A program made the translations under genes and the position numbers. Positions 1,834 through 11,770 of a stretch of DNA of 20,612 bases are shown here, piece after piece. The stretch comes from a virus. The notes beneath the pieces are model-generated. The model saw nothing but the letters and a program-made list of their open reading frames with translations. It was not told where the DNA came from and made no database searches. Numbering within the stretch: the stretch's first letter is position 1; every line of letters starts with the position of its first letter. The DNA lies in the IMG/VR virus record IMGVR_UViG_3300027985_000101, positions 1 through 20,612 of that record. One strand, written 5' to 3'.

Positions 1834-3278
1834 TACGCCTCTCCGTTATAATTTCCGTCAAGACTCTTAATCAGATCTTCCACCAGAGCATCATCTTGTT
1901 CAGCCAACTCCTTAGGACTTGCTTTAGCGGCCTCTTTATCTGCACTCTTAGTCATACCTATACGCTGAGAAATGGCTTGGTGCACATTGATGGGAGTATC
2001 CAAGAATGTACTGTTATCATCACGTTCTGGTAGATCAGCTCGTTTACGAATAGCATTCTCAAGAGTAGCGTCACTCGTGATGAATCCGGAGACATTTTGC
2101 AAGTACCCGCCCAGATCAGCCAGACTAGCTGCACCAATCGGTTTATGTACCAGCTTACAAGTCTTATCAGCATCCCAACCATTCAGCCTATACAGCTCAG
2201 GGATAGCCTTTCGGTTAAACTGTTCAGCAATAATCTCAAGGTATGCTTCAAGTGTCTGGATGAATGTTCCGATCTTATTGTCAGACAATGCAAACGAACC
2301 GCTTGAGGATGATCCCATCAGAATGAAGTCTGACAACATACTCTGTGCAATACGGTAGTCGTAACGCTCAATCACTTTAGATGTGTCAATTGAACGTGTA
2401 CCACGACTCGCTACAAGATCAAAGTTGAATAGCTCTTTGTTAGAAGTTTCGTCTGTATCACTTGGTAAGAACAAACAAGCCTGTTCATTATTACGTACGT
2501 TCGTACCAATACGAATAAACTCTTGGAATACAGCGTAACGATCAGGGTCTTCTGTCGGATCAGCCATAAAGTACTCCATCGGGATACGGAATACAGGCAG
2601 ACCATTCATTTCACGCTCAATACCAACTGCTTCGTAATACTCTAGCTTGGTTTTCTTATCCCAAGCATAGTAAGCATTCTTTAGAATAGAACGTCCAAGA
2701 GGATTGTTTCGTTCAGAGTCAGTGCGGAAATGTAGCAGACGAGAATATGGAATTTCAATATCTGTAGCAACCTTGGTTGTAAATCCAGCGATATTCAGTG
2801 GAGCCTGTTTAATCTGCTCCAGATTGCCTCGCTCATCAAACTTAAAACCAGTGATTGTTTTCTGAGAACGGGAAGGAAAATCCTTCCAGATGAAATTCCC
2901 TTTATAAACTTTGTAGGTGGGTTCGTGAAAGGAGAAGCCGTATTCAATGAATGACAAAATATCTGCTACCACTTGATCCCATGAACGTCCCATTCGCATG
3001 AATAGAGCATCACGGATAATATCAGCTTGAGCTTTGTCTGCATCATTGGCGTTAACACCTCCCACTGGTTCAATGTCCCACTCAACCTTACGAATGTATT
3101 GTTTAATCATCATAAGGGAGCCAGACACCAATGGGTCAGACTTCATCTTGTCGAATGTATTTAACGAATGGGGCCAGCGTAGTTCTGGAGCTAATTCATC
3201 ATCGACAATATTCTTCTGTGTGTAACGTAATCCGGTTCGACCAATTTCACGAGGAATTGTGGCTCGTTTTTCTGCCAT
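1833..3278 (-). CDS. Portal protein, DUF935 / Mu gp29-like
   Basis: A 481-residue protein with the pattern of DUF935 portals (Mu gp29 type, about 500 residues). These form the dodecameric ring at one capsid vertex through which DNA is packaged and to which the terminase docks. Visible marks are the N-terminal SGSLMMIKQYIRKVEWDIEP strand-helix, a FIEYGFSFHEPTYK segment near residue 110, a LHFRTDSERNNPLGRS block near 185, and an EREMNGLPVFRIP segment near 220. The C-terminal 45 residues are charged and probably disordered. The start has the ribosome-binding site CGGAGGAAAC. A strong promoter lies 50-80 nt upstream, so the gene opens its own operon. Confidence 0.85.
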   Translation of the reverse strand: MAEKRATIPREIGRTGLRYTQKNIVDDELAPELRWPHSLNTFDKMKSDPLVSGSLMMIKQYIRKVEWDIEPVGGVNANDADKAQADIIRDALFMRMGRSWDQVVADILSFIEYGFSFHEPTYKVYKGNFIWKDFPSRSQKTITGFKFDERGNLEQIKQAPLNIAGFTTKVATDIEIPYSRLLHFRTDSERNNPLGRSILKNAYYAWDKKTKLEYYEAVGIEREMNGLPVFRIPMEYFMADPTEDPDRYAVFQEFIRIGTNVRNNEQACLFLPSDTDETSNKELFNFDLVASRGTRSIDTSKVIERYDYRIAQSMLSDFILMGSSSSGSFALSDNKIGTFIQTLEAYLEIIAEQFNRKAIPELYRLNGWDADKTCKLVHKPIGAASLADLGGYLQNVSGFITSDATLENAIRKRADLPERDDNSTFLDTPINVHQAISQRIGMTKSADKEAAKASPKELAEQDDALVEDLIKSLDGNYNGEA

Positions 3279-3327: not shown

Positions 3328-3356
3328 ATATTAGTGATAGGGGAGGGTGGTGTCAA
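3328..3356 (-). promoter_or_regulatory. Sigma-70-type promoter for the portal-protease-scaffold-decoration operon
   Basis: On the minus strand there is a consensus -35 TTGACA (3356-3351), a 17-nt spacer and -10 TAATAT (3333-3328). It lies between the end of terL and the portal start and points towards portal. This near-consensus layout suggests recognition by the host sigma-70 polymerase. Confidence 0.8.
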
Positions 3357-3416
3357 TACTTTGACGCTAAATAATTATTGACAAAATATTGACACTGTGA
3401 TTTCCTTATTAGAGTT

Positions 3417-3443
3417 TCAGAATAATTTCTGAGCGAATTCATC
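3417..3443 (-). pseudogene. Relic copy of the terL 3' end
   Basis: Just past the terL stop, codons reading D-E-F-A-Q-K-L-F-stop repeat the true terL ending N-E-F-A-Q-K-L-F-stop at 3487-3461. The two copies differ at five third or stop positions (GAG/GAA, TTT/TTC, TTG/TTA, TTT/TTC, TAA/TGA) but only one residue. The similarity weakly continues upstream (S-L-A-D against M-L-K-V-N). This pattern suggests a fragment of a diverged terL allele left by recombination rather than a recent tandem duplication. Confidence 0.6.
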
Positions 3444-3460: not shown

Positions 3461-4537
3461 TTAAAACAATTTCTGAGCAAACTCATTCACTTTAAGCATT
3501 GATGGGATTTTGAATTTTTCTGGTAACTTCTTACCGGAGACTAGCCAGTTGTAGGAGTCGCCTGTCGAATCGACGAGATCATCTTTTTCATTCCGTTTAG
3601 TACCGGTAAAACCTTCCATTTCAGCTAACCATACCTTATTCCACTCACCTTCTACTACATATACCATGCCGTTTTCAGATGCGTTGGAGAATGGCAGTAT
3701 ACGGTCAACTTTACTACCCCTCGCTGGGTGCTTCTTAACCTTATATCCATTCATAATCAATGGTCTTGCATAAGACTCGAATGCAACCTTACCAGCAGCA
3801 GATGGGTCAAGTGGAAGACCGATCATAACATTCTTACCATCTTGTTCTGCGTACTTGTGTATGGCCTTGGCTACTCCTGCTGGACGTTCTCTGAATTTAT
3901 CGGCATGTAGTACATAGAAGTTACCGTCTTCGCCAAGCCCCATTAGAGTACACGCTGTAAAGTCAGGATTTGGGTTCGCTTCCGACACAATGCTACTAGC
4001 TAAGTCATAACACCTCGTAACCTTAACAAGTTTTGGTACATCCTTTCGTTTAATAAACTCAACCCAATCTCGCTTGAAATAGCCTGACGCTTCCGGTACA
4101 GCAAACCAATTGCCATACAAAAGTATTTCACGGTCTGTACGGTTAAGGTTTTTAAGTGCTGTTAAGTAGTTAGGCTGCATTTTGACCAAAATTGGATTAT
4201 CTGCAATAGACGCTGATAAAAATGTGAAGGAAATCGGATCACAATCATTACCGTGCCGTGCCTTGAGTTCGTAAGGATCTTCTGCCCAATCCATATGACC
4301 ATCGGCATCCACAATAAACCACCGGATTTTACCTGACTTGCTTATATCAGCATAACCATCCGGTGTGAGATACCATCCTACGAAATCAAGTATCCATGAA
4401 TCAGGTTGTGGGTTCAGTGTACATTTAATGAATGAGTTGCCTTCAGCATTAGAACGTAGACGTGATAGCAAGTACATAAACTGATGCCGACTAAACTGAC
4501 CAAGCTCATCAAAATATATCAAATGTTCAGAACTGTT
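3461..4537 (-). CDS. terL: terL exon 3: Walker B and nuclease domain
   Basis: It encodes residues 149-506. It opens with N-S-S-E-H and runs into Walker B (LIYFDELGQFS). The ATPase coupling motif (CTLNPQPDSW) follows, then the RNase H-like nuclease with Asp in RCYDLAS, in LDPSAAGK and in DDLVDSTGDSY. No plausible start codon with a ribosome-binding site lies near its 5' end, so it cannot be an independent gene; read alone it would begin at a TTG with no Shine-Dalgarno. Confidence 0.85.
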   Translation of the reverse strand, partial: NSSEHLIYFDELGQFSRHQFMYLLSRLRSNAEGNSFIKCTLNPQPDSWILDFVGWYLTPDGYADISKSGKIRWFIVDADGHMDWAEDPYELKARHGNDCDPISFTFLSASIADNPILVKMQPNYLTALKNLNRTDREILLYGNWFAVPEASGYFKRDWVEFIKRKDVPKLVKVTRCYDLASSIVSEANPNPDFTACTLMGLGEDGNFYVLHADKFRERPAGVAKAIHKYAEQDGKNVMIGLPLDPSAAGKVAFESYARPLIMNGYKVKKHPARGSKVDRILPFSNASENGMVYVVEGEWNKVWLAEMEGFTGTKRNEKDDLVDSTGDSYNWLVSGKKLPEKFKIPSMLKVNEFAQKLF

Positions 4538-5451
4538 CGTTAGACAATTCCCGCCAAGAGGCTGCTTATAGTTTCCTATAAGTTCAGATCATATCACCAT
4601 CCCTTGAGGATGCTCCCCGTTTCGATAGCACTTGCTACCTACGTCATAAAGACTGACCGTTGAACCTTATTGCTGCGCAATCTTGGCTGCTGATTGGCTT
4701 GGGACAAGTCCTTTAGCGTTCCAGCAATTAGAGGAGTTATTCGACACACATTACTATGTGAAGGGGCATATCTACCCGAATATTCGAGACCTTGGTGGTT
4801 GTAAACGTCTTTGTCGGTATCGAGATAGGAGTATCGACAAGTGGCCCCAGAAGGGAAATCTATCCGCATCTGAGACTGTTTAACTTCCGCTCCAATCTTT
4901 TTATATAGTGCAGAGGCTTTGGTGAACACACCACCAGAACCTCGCAACTGTGTTGATGTTTTACGGAACACAATACCGTCCCAATTAGGGTCAGATATGT
5001 GTTGGAATACATCGTAAAGTAGGCCCATCGTTTTCGCTGAACCTGCTGCGATCTGTTAGCTTGTATTTCTACAAGTGTCGGACTATCTCATCATCCCAGT
5101 AGGATGCCGGACGCTAATGGCGTATTACATGGTACGCTTACCAAGCCGCCTAGTCTCTGCAAGTTCCCTCTAAGATCGTAGAGGGCTTCTCTCAGGATTG
5201 CCTCCGACACTACTCGGTAAGGTTTCCCTGATTTCATCCGGTTATTCGACAAGCATTACTGCTTGAAGGGGCCATTACTTTAACCCACCATAAAAGGTAA
5301 TCATCGCATTGTGATGCGACAGCAAGAACTCGTTTTGTTTAGGCAGTGGTCTGATTACGTTTGGATCAGTATAAGGCGTAACATCGAAATCAGACACGTC
5401 TATGTTTGCAATTATATCTTTGATATGGGGAGTTACTTCCTGTTCTTCCAT
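3461..5451 (-). CDS. terL: Terminase large subunit, interrupted by two group I introns (join of three exons)
   Basis: The DNA-packaging motor: an N-terminal ATPase and a C-terminal RNase H-fold nuclease that dock on the portal and cut concatemers. No single ORF covers it. Exons 5451-5283, 5048-4774 and 4537-3461 join to 56 codons plus 1 nt, then 275 nt, then 358 codons, a 506-residue protein of normal size. The joined product has a Walker A loop (YGGSAGSAKT, residues 54-63), Walker B (LIYFDE, Asp158-Glu159), a coupling motif (TLNP) and nuclease motifs (CYDLAS; DPSAAGK; DDLVDSTGD). The start ATG at 5451 follows AGGAG by 8 nt. An alternative ATG at 5455 leads to an early stop. Exon edges were chosen by reading frame, a U before the intron and a G ending it; a few nucleotides of uncertainty remain, mainly at intron 2. 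Confidence 0.85.
4538..4773 (-). ncRNA. Group I intron 2 in terL (ORF-less, about 236 nt)
   Basis: On the minus strand this stretch carries group I core elements. P1 forms from exon GGGU and the guide GCCC, with the U.G wobble at the 5' splice site. A P2 hairpin has a GUAA loop, a P-like AATTGCTGGAACG and a Q-like AATCAGCAGCCAAG follow, an R-like GTTCAACGGTCAGT and a P8-like CATCC/GGATG hairpin come next, then an S-like GATATGATCTGAAC and a P9 hairpin with a GAAA tetraloop. It ends in G before AACAG. Reading through from exon 2 reaches a stop at 4639. The alternative 3' end AACAG/TTCTG cannot be excluded. Confidence 0.8.
4774..5048 (-). CDS. terL: terL exon 2: rest of Walker A and ATPase core
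   Basis: It encodes residues 57-148. It completes the P-loop (AGSAKT) begun in exon 1, then carries the adenine-side helix (MGLLYDVFQHI), the FRKTSTQLRGSGG arginine-containing segment and the RYSYLDTDKDVYNHQGLEYSG strand that precedes Walker B in terminases of this type. At 275 nt it keeps frame with both neighbours. The previous codon is split 1+2 across intron 1; intron 2 falls between codons. Confidence 0.85.
5049..5282 (-). ncRNA. Group I intron 1 in terL (ORF-less, about 234 nt)
   Basis: Minus-strand group I core elements are clear. P1 pairs exon GGGU with intron GCCC and has U.G at the splice site. The P2 hairpin CAAGCA-GUAA-UGCUUG follows, then P-like CAGGGAAACCTTAC, Q-like AATCCTGAGAGAAGCC, R-like CAGAGACTA, a P8-like CATCC/GGGATG hairpin, S-like GAGATAGTCC and P9 CTTGTA-GAAA-TACAAG. 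It ends in G. Unspliced message meets TAA three codons into the intron. The splice falls inside the Walker A loop; joined exons give a good P-loop. It encodes no protein, so mobility would need an endonuclease made elsewhere. Confidence 0.9.
5283..5451 (-). CDS. terL: terL exon 1: N-terminus up to the P-loop
   Basis: It encodes residues 1-56 plus the first base of codon 57. It starts MEEQEVTPHIKDIIANID, then carries the adenine-binding Q motif region (RPLPKQNEFLLS) and the strand ITFYGG that begins Walker A. The ATG at 5451 has AGGAG 8 nt upstream. Its first 19 nt overlap the end of the GIY-YIG gene. Confidence 0.85.
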
Positions 5452-6377
5452 CCATTATACTCCTGATTAGTTACATAGTCTGAAAGAATGTCTTCACAAG
5501 TACCATCATGTGCGATACACTTGTAAACACCAAGCAGCCTCCATCCCTTATGCTTATAATGACGACCTTTCGGGTACAGATTGGTGATGCTACTTGGCTT
5601 TATACCATACTTTGCACTAAACTCCTCCTTATAGCCTTCAAACACAAGACCAGAATCATGTTCAAACTTGTATTTGTCCAATCGCTTGCGATCAACTATT
5701 GGTTCTCGGATAAGATTGTCTACTGTTCCGCAATACATCCAGTCTTTATATCTTGCATATTTACCATTAAAGAAGTCGCTGGCATGTCCGTTTCTTATAT
5801 CACGGTTTTTGCAAAAATTGAACCGTTTACCAATATAAAATTCTTCTGTCATGCAATTAAAGACTACATGTATCCTCTCATCGTAGAGGTTGCCTCCCCT
5901 CTTCTTATATCCTGTCTTATTCTCAGCAAAACTCTTAATGCCGTGCCTACGTCTGAAGTTTTGAACAGCGCTTTTAGAATAAAAGAACTTATCCGCTATT
6001 TCTTGATCAGGGACTTTTCCGAGGAGTTTTTGTGCTTTTAAGCAAATCCAAGTTTTTCTAATATGGCTATTCTTTGGTGGATCTTCTCCCCCATAGGTCA
6101 TATTAACTAAGATCCCACCGTCCTTTCGTATTCCATATTTGGCTATTTCAGATCGTTCCAAATCATATGCTGTGTCTTCGCAGTCTGTATAATGTAAGAA
6201 TTTCACCACTGGATCTTCTTGAGCCAATTCCATCTTTTTGAGTGTTCTTTGTAGGTGGATATTAGAGGAGCTTCCTTTTTTAAAGTGCTGATAAACCCTG
6301 TCACCAGAACCCTTGCCAATATACAAAGGAGTTTCATCCGAACGACAAATCATATATACATAATACTTACCTTCCAT
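5433..6377 (-). CDS. GIY-YIG homing endonuclease, free-standing, upstream of terL
   Basis: A 314-residue protein with an N-terminal GIY-YIG nuclease domain: YYVYMI (5-10), YIGKG (19-23), Arg27, Glu74 in the helix YDLERSEIAKYG and Asn92 in LVNMTYGGE. The rest has a helix-turn-helix-like segment (around residues 115-140) and further small repeats (FYIGKR) likely to bind DNA, as in phage homing enzymes. The start ATG overlaps the terS stop (TGATG at 6379-6375), and the stop lies 19 nt inside terL, so the gene sits without a gap between the terminase subunits. It probably drives spread of itself or of the nearby terL introns. The target is not known. Confidence 0.88.
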   Translation of the reverse strand: MEGKYYVYMICRSDETPLYIGKGSGDRVYQHFKKGSSSNIHLQRTLKKMELAQEDPVVKFLHYTDCEDTAYDLERSEIAKYGIRKDGGILVNMTYGGEDPPKNSHIRKTWICLKAQKLLGKVPDQEIADKFFYSKSAVQNFRRRHGIKSFAENKTGYKKRGGNLYDERIHVVFNCMTEEFYIGKRFNFCKNRDIRNGHASDFFNGKYARYKDWMYCGTVDNLIREPIVDRKRLDKYKFEHDSGLVFEGYKEEFSAKYGIKPSSITNLYPKGRHYKHKGWRLLGVYKCIAHDGTCEDILSDYVTNQEYNGWKNRK

Positions 6378-7117
6378 CACTCCTCCTTAGTAGGGAATAC
6401 AATCAGCGCATCCGGCTCATCCTCTACTTCATATTCTGCTTTATGATCTTCAAGATAGCGGTCAACACCCTTCTCTTGAATCTCTGGATTCTTTTTAACT
6501 TGTTCTTCTAACCCCGGTGTGAATACATGAATCTGATATTTAGATTCTTCTTCACCACCTTCAATCTTGTTAGGTTCCCAATCACCCGATTCATTCACTT
6601 CAACAGGCTTCAAATTAGGCAACAACTTATCAGATAGATATTTCGCAATAGATAACTTCTGCGCCAGTGTAATATCCTTAGGGTTCTTGACACCATATTT
6701 CCGTAGAACACCCACATCGCTCATAAGGACGGCGCTGAGCATTTCTACCGGATTGGCACCCATTGCATCGCAAACACTTTTGACAGTAATTCGGTTAGAA
6801 CTCGACTTCGGTCTCCCTCGCGGGTTTCCACTCTCACCATTACTCCAATTAATATTCCCCCGTGCTCTGCCGTTTACATCATCCACGGCATAATTCAGCA
6901 CACGGGGATCTTTAGGATTCTTCGTGAAGAATATCTTCCCTTCTGGACATTCAGCCGTAGGCGGGAATCGTGCCTGCCACCATTGCTCACCTTGCCAGAA
7001 GACAAACTTGCTAATAACGTCTTTGCTCAAACCCATCTGTTTGCCTACATCAATCTCTTGCAATGTGATATTATCCGGCAATGTATCTGGGTATAGATAA
7101 TTCTTTTTCTTACTCAT
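6377..7117 (-). CDS. Putative terminase small subunit
   Basis: A 246-residue protein directly upstream of the endonuclease and terL, where the DNA-recognising small terminase normally lies. The N-terminal third (LPDNITLQEIDVGKQMGLSK) could be a helix-turn-helix. The centre has GNINWSNGESGNPRGRPKSS, similar to the DUF5681 motif found in phage terminase-associated proteins. A helical region (LAQKLSIAKYLSDKLLPNL) and an acidic tail follow. I chose the ATG at 7117 (MSKKKNYLYP) over the upstream in-frame ATG at 7174, because the latter would place the first 19 codons inside a terminator-like hairpin. The ribosome-binding site is weak (AAAAGG, 13 nt away). The terS role is inferred mainly from position. 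Confidence 0.55.
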   Translation of the reverse strand: MSKKKNYLYPDTLPDNITLQEIDVGKQMGLSKDVISKFVFWQGEQWWQARFPPTAECPEGKIFFTKNPKDPRVLNYAVDDVNGRARGNINWSNGESGNPRGRPKSSSNRITVKSVCDAMGANPVEMLSAVLMSDVGVLRKYGVKNPKDITLAQKLSIAKYLSDKLLPNLKPVEVNESGDWEPNKIEGGEEESKYQIHVFTPGLEEQVKKNPEIQEKGVDRYLEDHKAEYEVEDEPDALIVFPTKEE

Positions 7118-7137
7118 AATTCTGTTTAAACCTTTTG

Positions 7138-7188
7138 AAAAAAGAAAGCCTGCTGGACATCCTCTGGTGAACATCCGAGACAGGCTTT
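7138..7188 (-). terminator. Terminator-like hairpin upstream of terS
   Basis: On the minus strand an 8-bp perfect stem (AAAGCCTG / CAGGCTTT, 28-nt interior that can partly fold) is followed by C and six T residues. It would end the transcript carrying the HNH gene, tRNA and structured RNA. It lies only about 20 nt before terS, and no promoter is obvious in that gap, so it may act as a partial terminator or a processing site. Confidence 0.6.
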
Positions 7189-7564: not shown

Positions 7565-7641
7565 TGGTGGGTCTGTTCGGGTACGATCCGAAATCGCCAC
7601 GATTATGAGTCGCGTGTTTTAACCAATTAAACTACAGACCC
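7565..7641 (-). tRNA. tRNA with anticodon CAU (Met or, after modification, Ile)
   Basis: A full 77-nt cloverleaf is visible, including an encoded 3' ACCA. Acceptor GGGTCTG/CAGACCC, D-arm GTTT/AAAC with GG in the loop, anticodon stem CGCGA/TCGTG (one G.U pair) with loop CTCATAA, 5-nt variable loop, T-stem TTCGG/CCGAA. The anticodon loop and inner stem pairs match bacterial tRNA-Ile2(CAU) as well as elongator Met, so identity is open. The T-loop is unusual: ATCGTAC instead of TTCRANY, with A54 and T58 swapped relative to the standard T54-A58 pair. Confidence 0.85.
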
Positions 7642-7659
7642 TACAATATATGCGAGTGT

Positions 7660-8175
7660 CTAGTCTACGTCCTTATAATACTCTCTGTAGAATATTTTTG
7701 AGATAGTACAATGTGATACCCCGAACTTCCTTGCCAGAGCATGCATACCGTAGTCAGGGTGGCGGGGTATGCACTTACTGCGGATAAATCTAATCTCGTC
7801 CTCACTAAACTTAGAATTTACCTTTTTACAACCTTTTAAAACATTTATTAAACCATTTGAGTAAGCATGGTTAGTGTTTTCTCTGTGACTAACCCACTCA
7901 AGGTTCTCGACTTTGTTGTTTGTTTTATCACCATCTTTGTGGTTAACTACCGGCTTGTCATACTCATTCTCTATAAATGCATCCGCCACCAGCCTATGTA
8001 GTTTAAAGCATACGCTGACGCCGAGCCTCCCTCCGATTTTGGTTGCACATACCAAATAGCCCTTCTTATTTCGGTATTGCTTTAATACTTTATCTGTTCT
8101 TTTTGAGAACAACTGACCGTCTGAGGAAACAGAAAATAGATCCTCGTAACCTACAACATCCTTCCAGATAGTCAT
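7660..8175 (-). CDS. HNH homing endonuclease (NUMOD4 + HNH)
   Basis: A 171-residue protein of the phage NUMOD4-HNH type. The N-terminus (WKDVVGYEDLFSVSSDGQ) is a typical NUMOD4 domain. The HNH core follows: His60 in LHRLVADAF, VNHKDGDKTNNKVENLEWVS (77-96) and the HRENTNHA helix. A C-terminal helix-turn-helix (residues 143-163, ALARKFGVSHCTISKI) would add DNA specificity. The start has AGGAGG with 5 nt spacing. It is free-standing, next to the tRNA, with its own promoter and long leader. Its target is unknown; genes next to such enzymes are often the protected site. Confidence 0.88.
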   Translation of the reverse strand: MTIWKDVVGYEDLFSVSSDGQLFSKRTDKVLKQYRNKKGYLVCATKIGGRLGVSVCFKLHRLVADAFIENEYDKPVVNHKDGDKTNNKVENLEWVSHRENTNHAYSNGLINVLKGCKKVNSKFSEDEIRFIRSKCIPRHPDYGMHALARKFGVSHCTISKIFYREYYKDVD

Positions 8176-11128: not shown

Positions 11129-11177
11129 GTATATCACTGTTATTACAGTAACCCCTAGCAGAGATCTTACATCATGA
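11118..11177 (+). pseudogene. Truncated amidase 5' stub (20 codons) in front of the homing endonuclease
   Basis: ATG at 11118 begins MNPKYITV, the same first eight residues as the intact amidase at 11775 (23 of 24 bases identical). It continues ITVTPSRDLTS, which still resembles an amidase N-terminus, then stops at TGA (11175-11177). That TGA overlaps the ATG of the HNH/AP2-type gene (ATGA). It looks like the original start of the amidase gene, cut off by endonuclease insertion, and now perhaps a leader peptide that couples translation to the endonuclease. Confidence 0.65.
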
Positions 11178-11770
11178 GAACAGTTTGCGGTGTTGGTGTT
11201 AACGATAGTAATGAACAAGTAAGAAAAACAGAGTGGGTTAACGGTAAGAGTGTAGTCATCTGGGAATGCCCATATTATAAGGTATGGTCTAGCATGCTAA
11301 CCAGATGCTATTCCAGCAAATACCACGAGAAGTATAAAACGTATATTAACGTACAAGTTTGCGATGATTGGTTAAGGTTTAGTAAATTTAAAAGCTGGAT
11401 GAGTACCCAAAAATGGGAGGGTCGTCACCTAGACAAGGATATACTATCTGTTGATAGACTCGGTAAGGTGTATTCCCCAGAAACTTGTTGTTTTGTACAT
11501 CCAAGGGTAAATGTTTTTGTTGTACAACCGTCAAAAGGGATATCTTGCTGGATAGACAAGCGTACTAACAAATATGTAGCATGTTGTACAAACCCCATCA
11601 CTGGAAAGAGAGAGTATTTTGGACGATTTTCTGATAGAAAAGACGCTATAGATGCGTGGTATTCAGCAAAACATCGATTCGCAATAGAGTTGGCAAACTC
11701 AGAATTTGTTGACGATGATCGAGTAAAAGATGCCCTCTGTGCATATTATGAAACCTACCACAGGAGATAA
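11174..11770 (+). CDS. HNH/AP2-type homing endonuclease inserted before the amidase
   Basis: A 198-residue protein of the phage endonuclease type with a Cys/Trp-rich core: CPYYKVWSSMLTRCY (32-46), VQVCDDWLRFSKFKSWM (60-76), the HLDKDIL motif (85-91) and VYSPETCCFVHPRVN (99-113). Residues 122-175 (GISCWIDKRTNKYVACC to DAIDAWYSAKHRF) look like an AP2 DNA-binding domain. Overall this is a free-standing homing endonuclease. It splits an ancestral junction between the 65-residue gene and the amidase, with duplicated amidase start sequence on both sides. Its stop is 4 nt before the amidase ATG, and its last bases supply the amidase ribosome-binding site. Confidence 0.8.
   Translation: MRTVCGVGVNDSNEQVRKTEWVNGKSVVIWECPYYKVWSSMLTRCYSSKYHEKYKTYINVQVCDDWLRFSKFKSWMSTQKWEGRHLDKDILSVDRLGKVYSPETCCFVHPRVNVFVVQPSKGISCWIDKRTNKYVACCTNPITGKREYFGRFSDRKDAIDAWYSAKHRFAIELANSEFVDDDRVKDALCAYYETYHRR

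Follow-up and report, generated by a model that had tools for sequence, protein, structure and literature searches.

The window, by which we mean the whole 20,612-nucleotide stretch that was analysed (IMG/VR record IMGVR_UViG_3300027985_000101), comes from an uncultured phage contig and carries a large terminase gene (terL) on its minus strand at 5451-3461, divided among three reading frames with two spacers between them (Table 1). Joining the exons (5451-5283, 5048-4774, and 4519-3461) yields a protein of 500 residues. Walker A (GGSAGSAKT) and Walker B (IYFDE) are both present in the 500-residue version, and Pfam matches to Terminase_6N, Terminase_6C, and Terminase_3, obtained with a 506-residue version, place an RNase H-like nuclease domain behind them, so that the protein has the makeup of a TerL. 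A related terminase was found by tblastn in 1,393 phage records, every one below 60% identity, and the best rows, at ~42% identity, came from Felix O1/Suspvirus-type phages. The nuclease domain (window 3461-4519) also gave a phmmer match to the head-binding domains of P22-type tailspikes (E 3e-5), a likeness that we regarded as due to chance.

Table 1. Coordinates of the terL exons, the two introns, and the adjacent endonuclease gene in the window.
Feature	Position	Strand	Length	Basis and remarks
Free-standing GIY-YIG homing endonuclease gene	5433..6380	-	315 residues	PHROG 314 homing endonuclease, E 6e-13
terL exon 1	5283..5451	-		ATG at 5451; 3' end ...TATGGTGGGT, phase 1; open frame MEEQ...ITFYGG(S)
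Group I intron 1	5049..5282	-	234 nt	Rfam RF00028, 80.1 bits; interrupts Walker A, YGG^SAGSAKT
terL exon 2	4774..5048	-		3' end ...GAATATTCGGGT, phase 0; tblastn to homologous terminases
Group I intron 2	4520..4773	-	254 nt	Rfam RF00028, 59.2 bits; at Walker B, HQGLEYSG^IYFDEL
Intron 2 3' tail	4520..4555	-		Hairpin GAAUUGU...ACAGUUC and UGAACAUUUG, then the true 3' splice site
terL exon 3	3461..4519	-		IYFDELGQF... to stop; remaining ATPase domain and nuclease domain; Pfam Terminase_6C

Both spacers have the properties of group I introns. In a covariance search with Rfam RF00028, for which the gathering cut-off is 50 bits, intron 1 was matched at 5292-5059 (80.1 bits, E 3e-19) and intron 2 at 4814-4565 (59.2 bits, E 6e-13). 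In each case, the 5' exon ends in GGGU and can pair with an internal guide GCCC, the exon U facing the guide G, and the final intron base is a G, at 5049 and 4520, respectively. The core helices of both are kept by compensatory change; in the consensus fold of the intron 1 clade, two-sided compensatory changes were seen in 22 of 38 pairs (10 introns, with a change in at least one sequence). Neither intron contains an endonuclease ORF. The closest intronless relative, L031, is 63% identical, forms a single open frame over residues 8-493, with its alignment to exon 1 beginning at residue 8, and has both sites empty. Its FFGGSAGSSKT, against FYGGSAGSAKT in the spliced product, confirms the intron 1 junction at GG^SAGS.

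Read without splicing, exon 1 reaches a stop directly after YGGLK, and no ATPase domain would therefore be made unless the introns were removed. It can soundly be argued that DNA packaging would depend on two ribozymes. These results uphold most of the initial annotation, which had read the three frames as parts of one TerL (here joining into one terminase with Terminase_6N and Terminase_6C) and the spacers as two group I introns with a U before and a G at the end of each, had placed intron 1 at 5282-5049 across Walker A and intron 2 at Walker B, and had held that the ATPase is not made from the unspliced gene; the covariance scores, the comparative pairing, and the empty site in L031 all agree with it, and the Walker B position fits once the end of intron 2 is corrected as described below.

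The GIY-YIG gene lies directly upstream of terL and overlaps its start, and its product is weakly similar to solved GIY-YIG proteins. It sits between terL and a gene at window 6377-7174 whose PHROG, 4114, is also that of the gene immediately preceding terL in L031; in that intronless locus, no endonuclease lies between the PHROG 4114 gene and terL. Relatives of the GIY-YIG gene are found upstream of terL in L032-L035. Among a small, hand-picked set of related loci with an upstream ORF, which are not phylogenetically independent, the gene immediately preceding terL was a homing endonuclease or endonuclease-like gene in 9 of 10 loci with introns but in 1 of 9 without them (Fisher p = 0.001); of these nine, eight were assigned by PHROG name and L035 because its protein resembles that of the window. 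L039, which has introns at both Walker sites, gave no endonuclease match upstream of terL. The association is support, not proof, for a homing in trans that may have operated here. An ORF-less intron beside a free-standing endonuclease gene (window 5433-6380, PHROG 314) is the arrangement of a collaborative pair. Homing in trans by free-standing endonucleases is known for T4 mobE and I-TevIII, where an intron lacking a working endonuclease likewise lies beside a separate endonuclease gene (review PMC3984707). The pair in the window differs in that it places a GIY-YIG enzyme beside terL, with cleavage that is putative here.

From these features we infer that terL is spliced in the cell. In the mechanism that we propose, the gene would be transcribed as a single RNA carrying two independently acquired group I introns, each of which would fold as a ribozyme, pair its guide GCCC with the exon end GGGU, and excise itself in the usual two guanosine-dependent steps, leaving the three exons joined for translation into the 500-residue terminase. 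The upstream GIY-YIG endonuclease probably cuts intronless terL alleles, and this cutting would spread or maintain one or both introns in trans; we favor such homing by a modest measure. The introns might otherwise act as a regulated switch, in which splicing, or skipping of exon 2 between the similar guides, delays the terminase until late infection. Both 5' splice sites and guides do match (GGGU/GCCC), exon skipping has been reported in the phage SIOphi, which has two introns (PMC11878797), and skipping of exon 2 here would end the protein at YGGYIF. However, no switch is necessary for the introns to persist, since homing could account for their persistence, and we consider regulation of this kind unlikely.

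A tree was built from 26 phage introns. Intron 1 was placed in it together with an intron of Klebsiella phage phiKp_21, Vibrio terL introns that occupy other motifs, and a Vibrio polymerase intron; closest to it were those from phiKp_21 and those lying at another Vibrio terL site. Intron 2 grouped with the intron of L003 and a Vibrio DNA polymerase intron. A single clade of introns 1 and 2 (with L003) was rejected (AU p = 0.0006), indicating that the two introns were acquired separately. Over the first 32 nt from the guide onward (P1-P2), 27 of 32 positions are identical between them, the guide GCCCC included, as would be expected if intron 2 were a within-gene duplicate of intron 1. The cores nevertheless fall in separate clades whose union is rejected under the model used for the whole intron, which makes a duplication very unlikely. 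The 5' module alone may have been exchanged between the introns. A broader proposal is that introns of different ancestry converged on or exchanged one 5' guide module (GCCCCUUCA...GUAAUG...GUCGAAUAAC), both reading GGGU exons, that the two persist at the ATPase motifs through the action of the upstream GIY-YIG enzyme, and that cross-pairing makes exon 2 skipping an off-switch for the terminase; taken as a whole, we think it improbable.

A DNA-pattern scan found the shared P1-P2 module only in L003, L028, and L029. The match of intron 1 to L028 is 32 of 32, a figure biased by the pattern used to find L028. Neither L028 nor L029 has an intron above the Rfam cut-off, though both look like introns with an insertion, which is probably the reason for their low scores. 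In L028 (~896), the intron lies in what is probably a DNA polymerase gene, has the same guide module, follows a GGGT exon end, and contains an internal ORF; in L029 (~1532, reverse strand), an intron with the same guide module and exon end lies in what is probably a ribonucleotide reductase gene.

The 3' end of intron 2 was the one limit that had to be moved. The initial annotation had started this intron at 4773, as we do, and ended it at 4538, for a length of 236 nt and a product of 506 residues. Ending the intron instead 18 nt farther downstream, after ...GAACAUUUG (4520), gives HQGLEYSGIYFDELGQFSR in the protein; L031 reads HQGLEYSGVYFDEL at this site with no interruption, and HQGLEYSGVYFDELGRFSR across the junction. 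An end at 4538 preserves the frame and also has G as its last base, but it inserts NSSEHL between EYSG and IYFDEL, six residues that are absent in L031 and the other homologues aligned across the site. Moreover, the 4538/4537 site is part of a hairpin loop within the intron, and this hairpin also occurs in related introns before a UGAACAU-like motif: a hairpin is found at the matching place before the inferred splice site in the introns of R16F, TS9, VPMCC14, 424E50-1, L006, and L004, and most tail hairpins of related introns are followed by such a motif. The end at 4520 permits a P10 pairing (AUAU/AUAU). We thus hold the earlier end to be highly improbable, and with it the six additional residues.

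Intron 2, ending at 4520, has a counterpart in L003. This contig, from another metagenome, has the last part of exon 2 followed by intron 2 and exon 3, and its intron at site 2 scores 69 bits against RF00028. The two introns differ at 33 of 254 positions with no indels; most pairing in the tail hairpin and in P2, P5, and P9 persists through one- or two-sided changes, but in the register used L003 no longer forms two of the P2 pairs. That the three reading frames stem from a decayed terL pseudogene, or from assembly frameshifts where the phage contig is defective or misassembled, is scarcely credible, as both interruptions score as group I introns, the 220 differences from L003 in exon 3 lie mainly (160 of 220) at third codon positions, and L003, from its separate metagenome, shares the structure of site 2. 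Judged on comparative grounds, the window very probably contains a functional terL with two group I introns, 5282-5049 and 4773-4520, although an intron defective in splicing could look the same in sequence.

Other phages were already known to carry several introns in terL, and the window adds a well-supported new case; the view that two introns in one terL are uncommon could not be maintained. Vibrio phages VnaP (ON212104), vB_VpaM_R16F (OP793884), 1.187.O, and 1.193.O have terL genes annotated as fragments, as does Brochothrix A9. In these Vibrio phages, as in the window, group I introns split terL (three or four there), one of them adjoins Walker A, and a separate endonuclease or endonuclease-like gene lies directly upstream. 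However, the Walker A intron of R16F and VnaP is at a nearby but different position, the other Vibrio terL introns are at CNPD, YDNP, and DPGAAG motifs with none found at Walker B, and the terminases are only ~30% identical to that of the window. Two IMG/VR contigs, L036 (3300043122_000070) and L039 (3300037502_001669), resemble the window in that group I introns lie close to each of the two Walker motifs of terL, but their terminases are ~43% identical over exon 3, their intron sequences differ, and they carry no annotation. Bastillevirinae terL genes have one to three group I introns, as in SIOphi, for which TerL splicing was shown in vitro and in infected cells; unlike the window, these phages have Gram-positive hosts, a mean intron of 802 nt, and many intron-internal endonucleases (PMC11878797). 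Jug phages have terL in 2-3 fragments with short group I introns averaging ~206 nt, splicing backed by metatranscriptome reads, and, like the window, endonuclease genes upstream of terL, but they are huge Bacteroides phages (PMC12363816).

The window adds a clear metagenomic case to a pattern that these comparisons sharpen: short group I introns without ORFs, from different lineages, have settled again and again at Walker A and Walker B of terL, usually next to a free-standing homing endonuclease gene. A consequence for annotation is that an intron-split terL is missed or truncated where terL is used as a phage marker.

Several further observations were made in the window and in related records. 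Two free-standing HNH endonuclease genes are present in the window, one at 7660-8175, just beyond a tRNA-Met gene (7565-7641), and one at 11174-11770. In Aeromonas phage vB_AdhM_TS9 (L020, ~2150-2500), terL is annotated as hypothetical proteins and is interrupted by a group I intron at HQGL^QYSFVGFDEL, preceded by GGGT, with an apparent second intron right after GFDEL. In the Klebsiella phages phiKp_21 and Muenster (L009 and L011, ~2950-3220), a tRNA gene seems to be split in its anticodon loop, after CAT, by a group I intron; the site reads GGCCCCTTAGCTCA...GACTCAT, intron, AATCGTTTGG...GGGGCCACCA, and a tRNA-Asn is annotated just downstream in the records, at 3338-3421.
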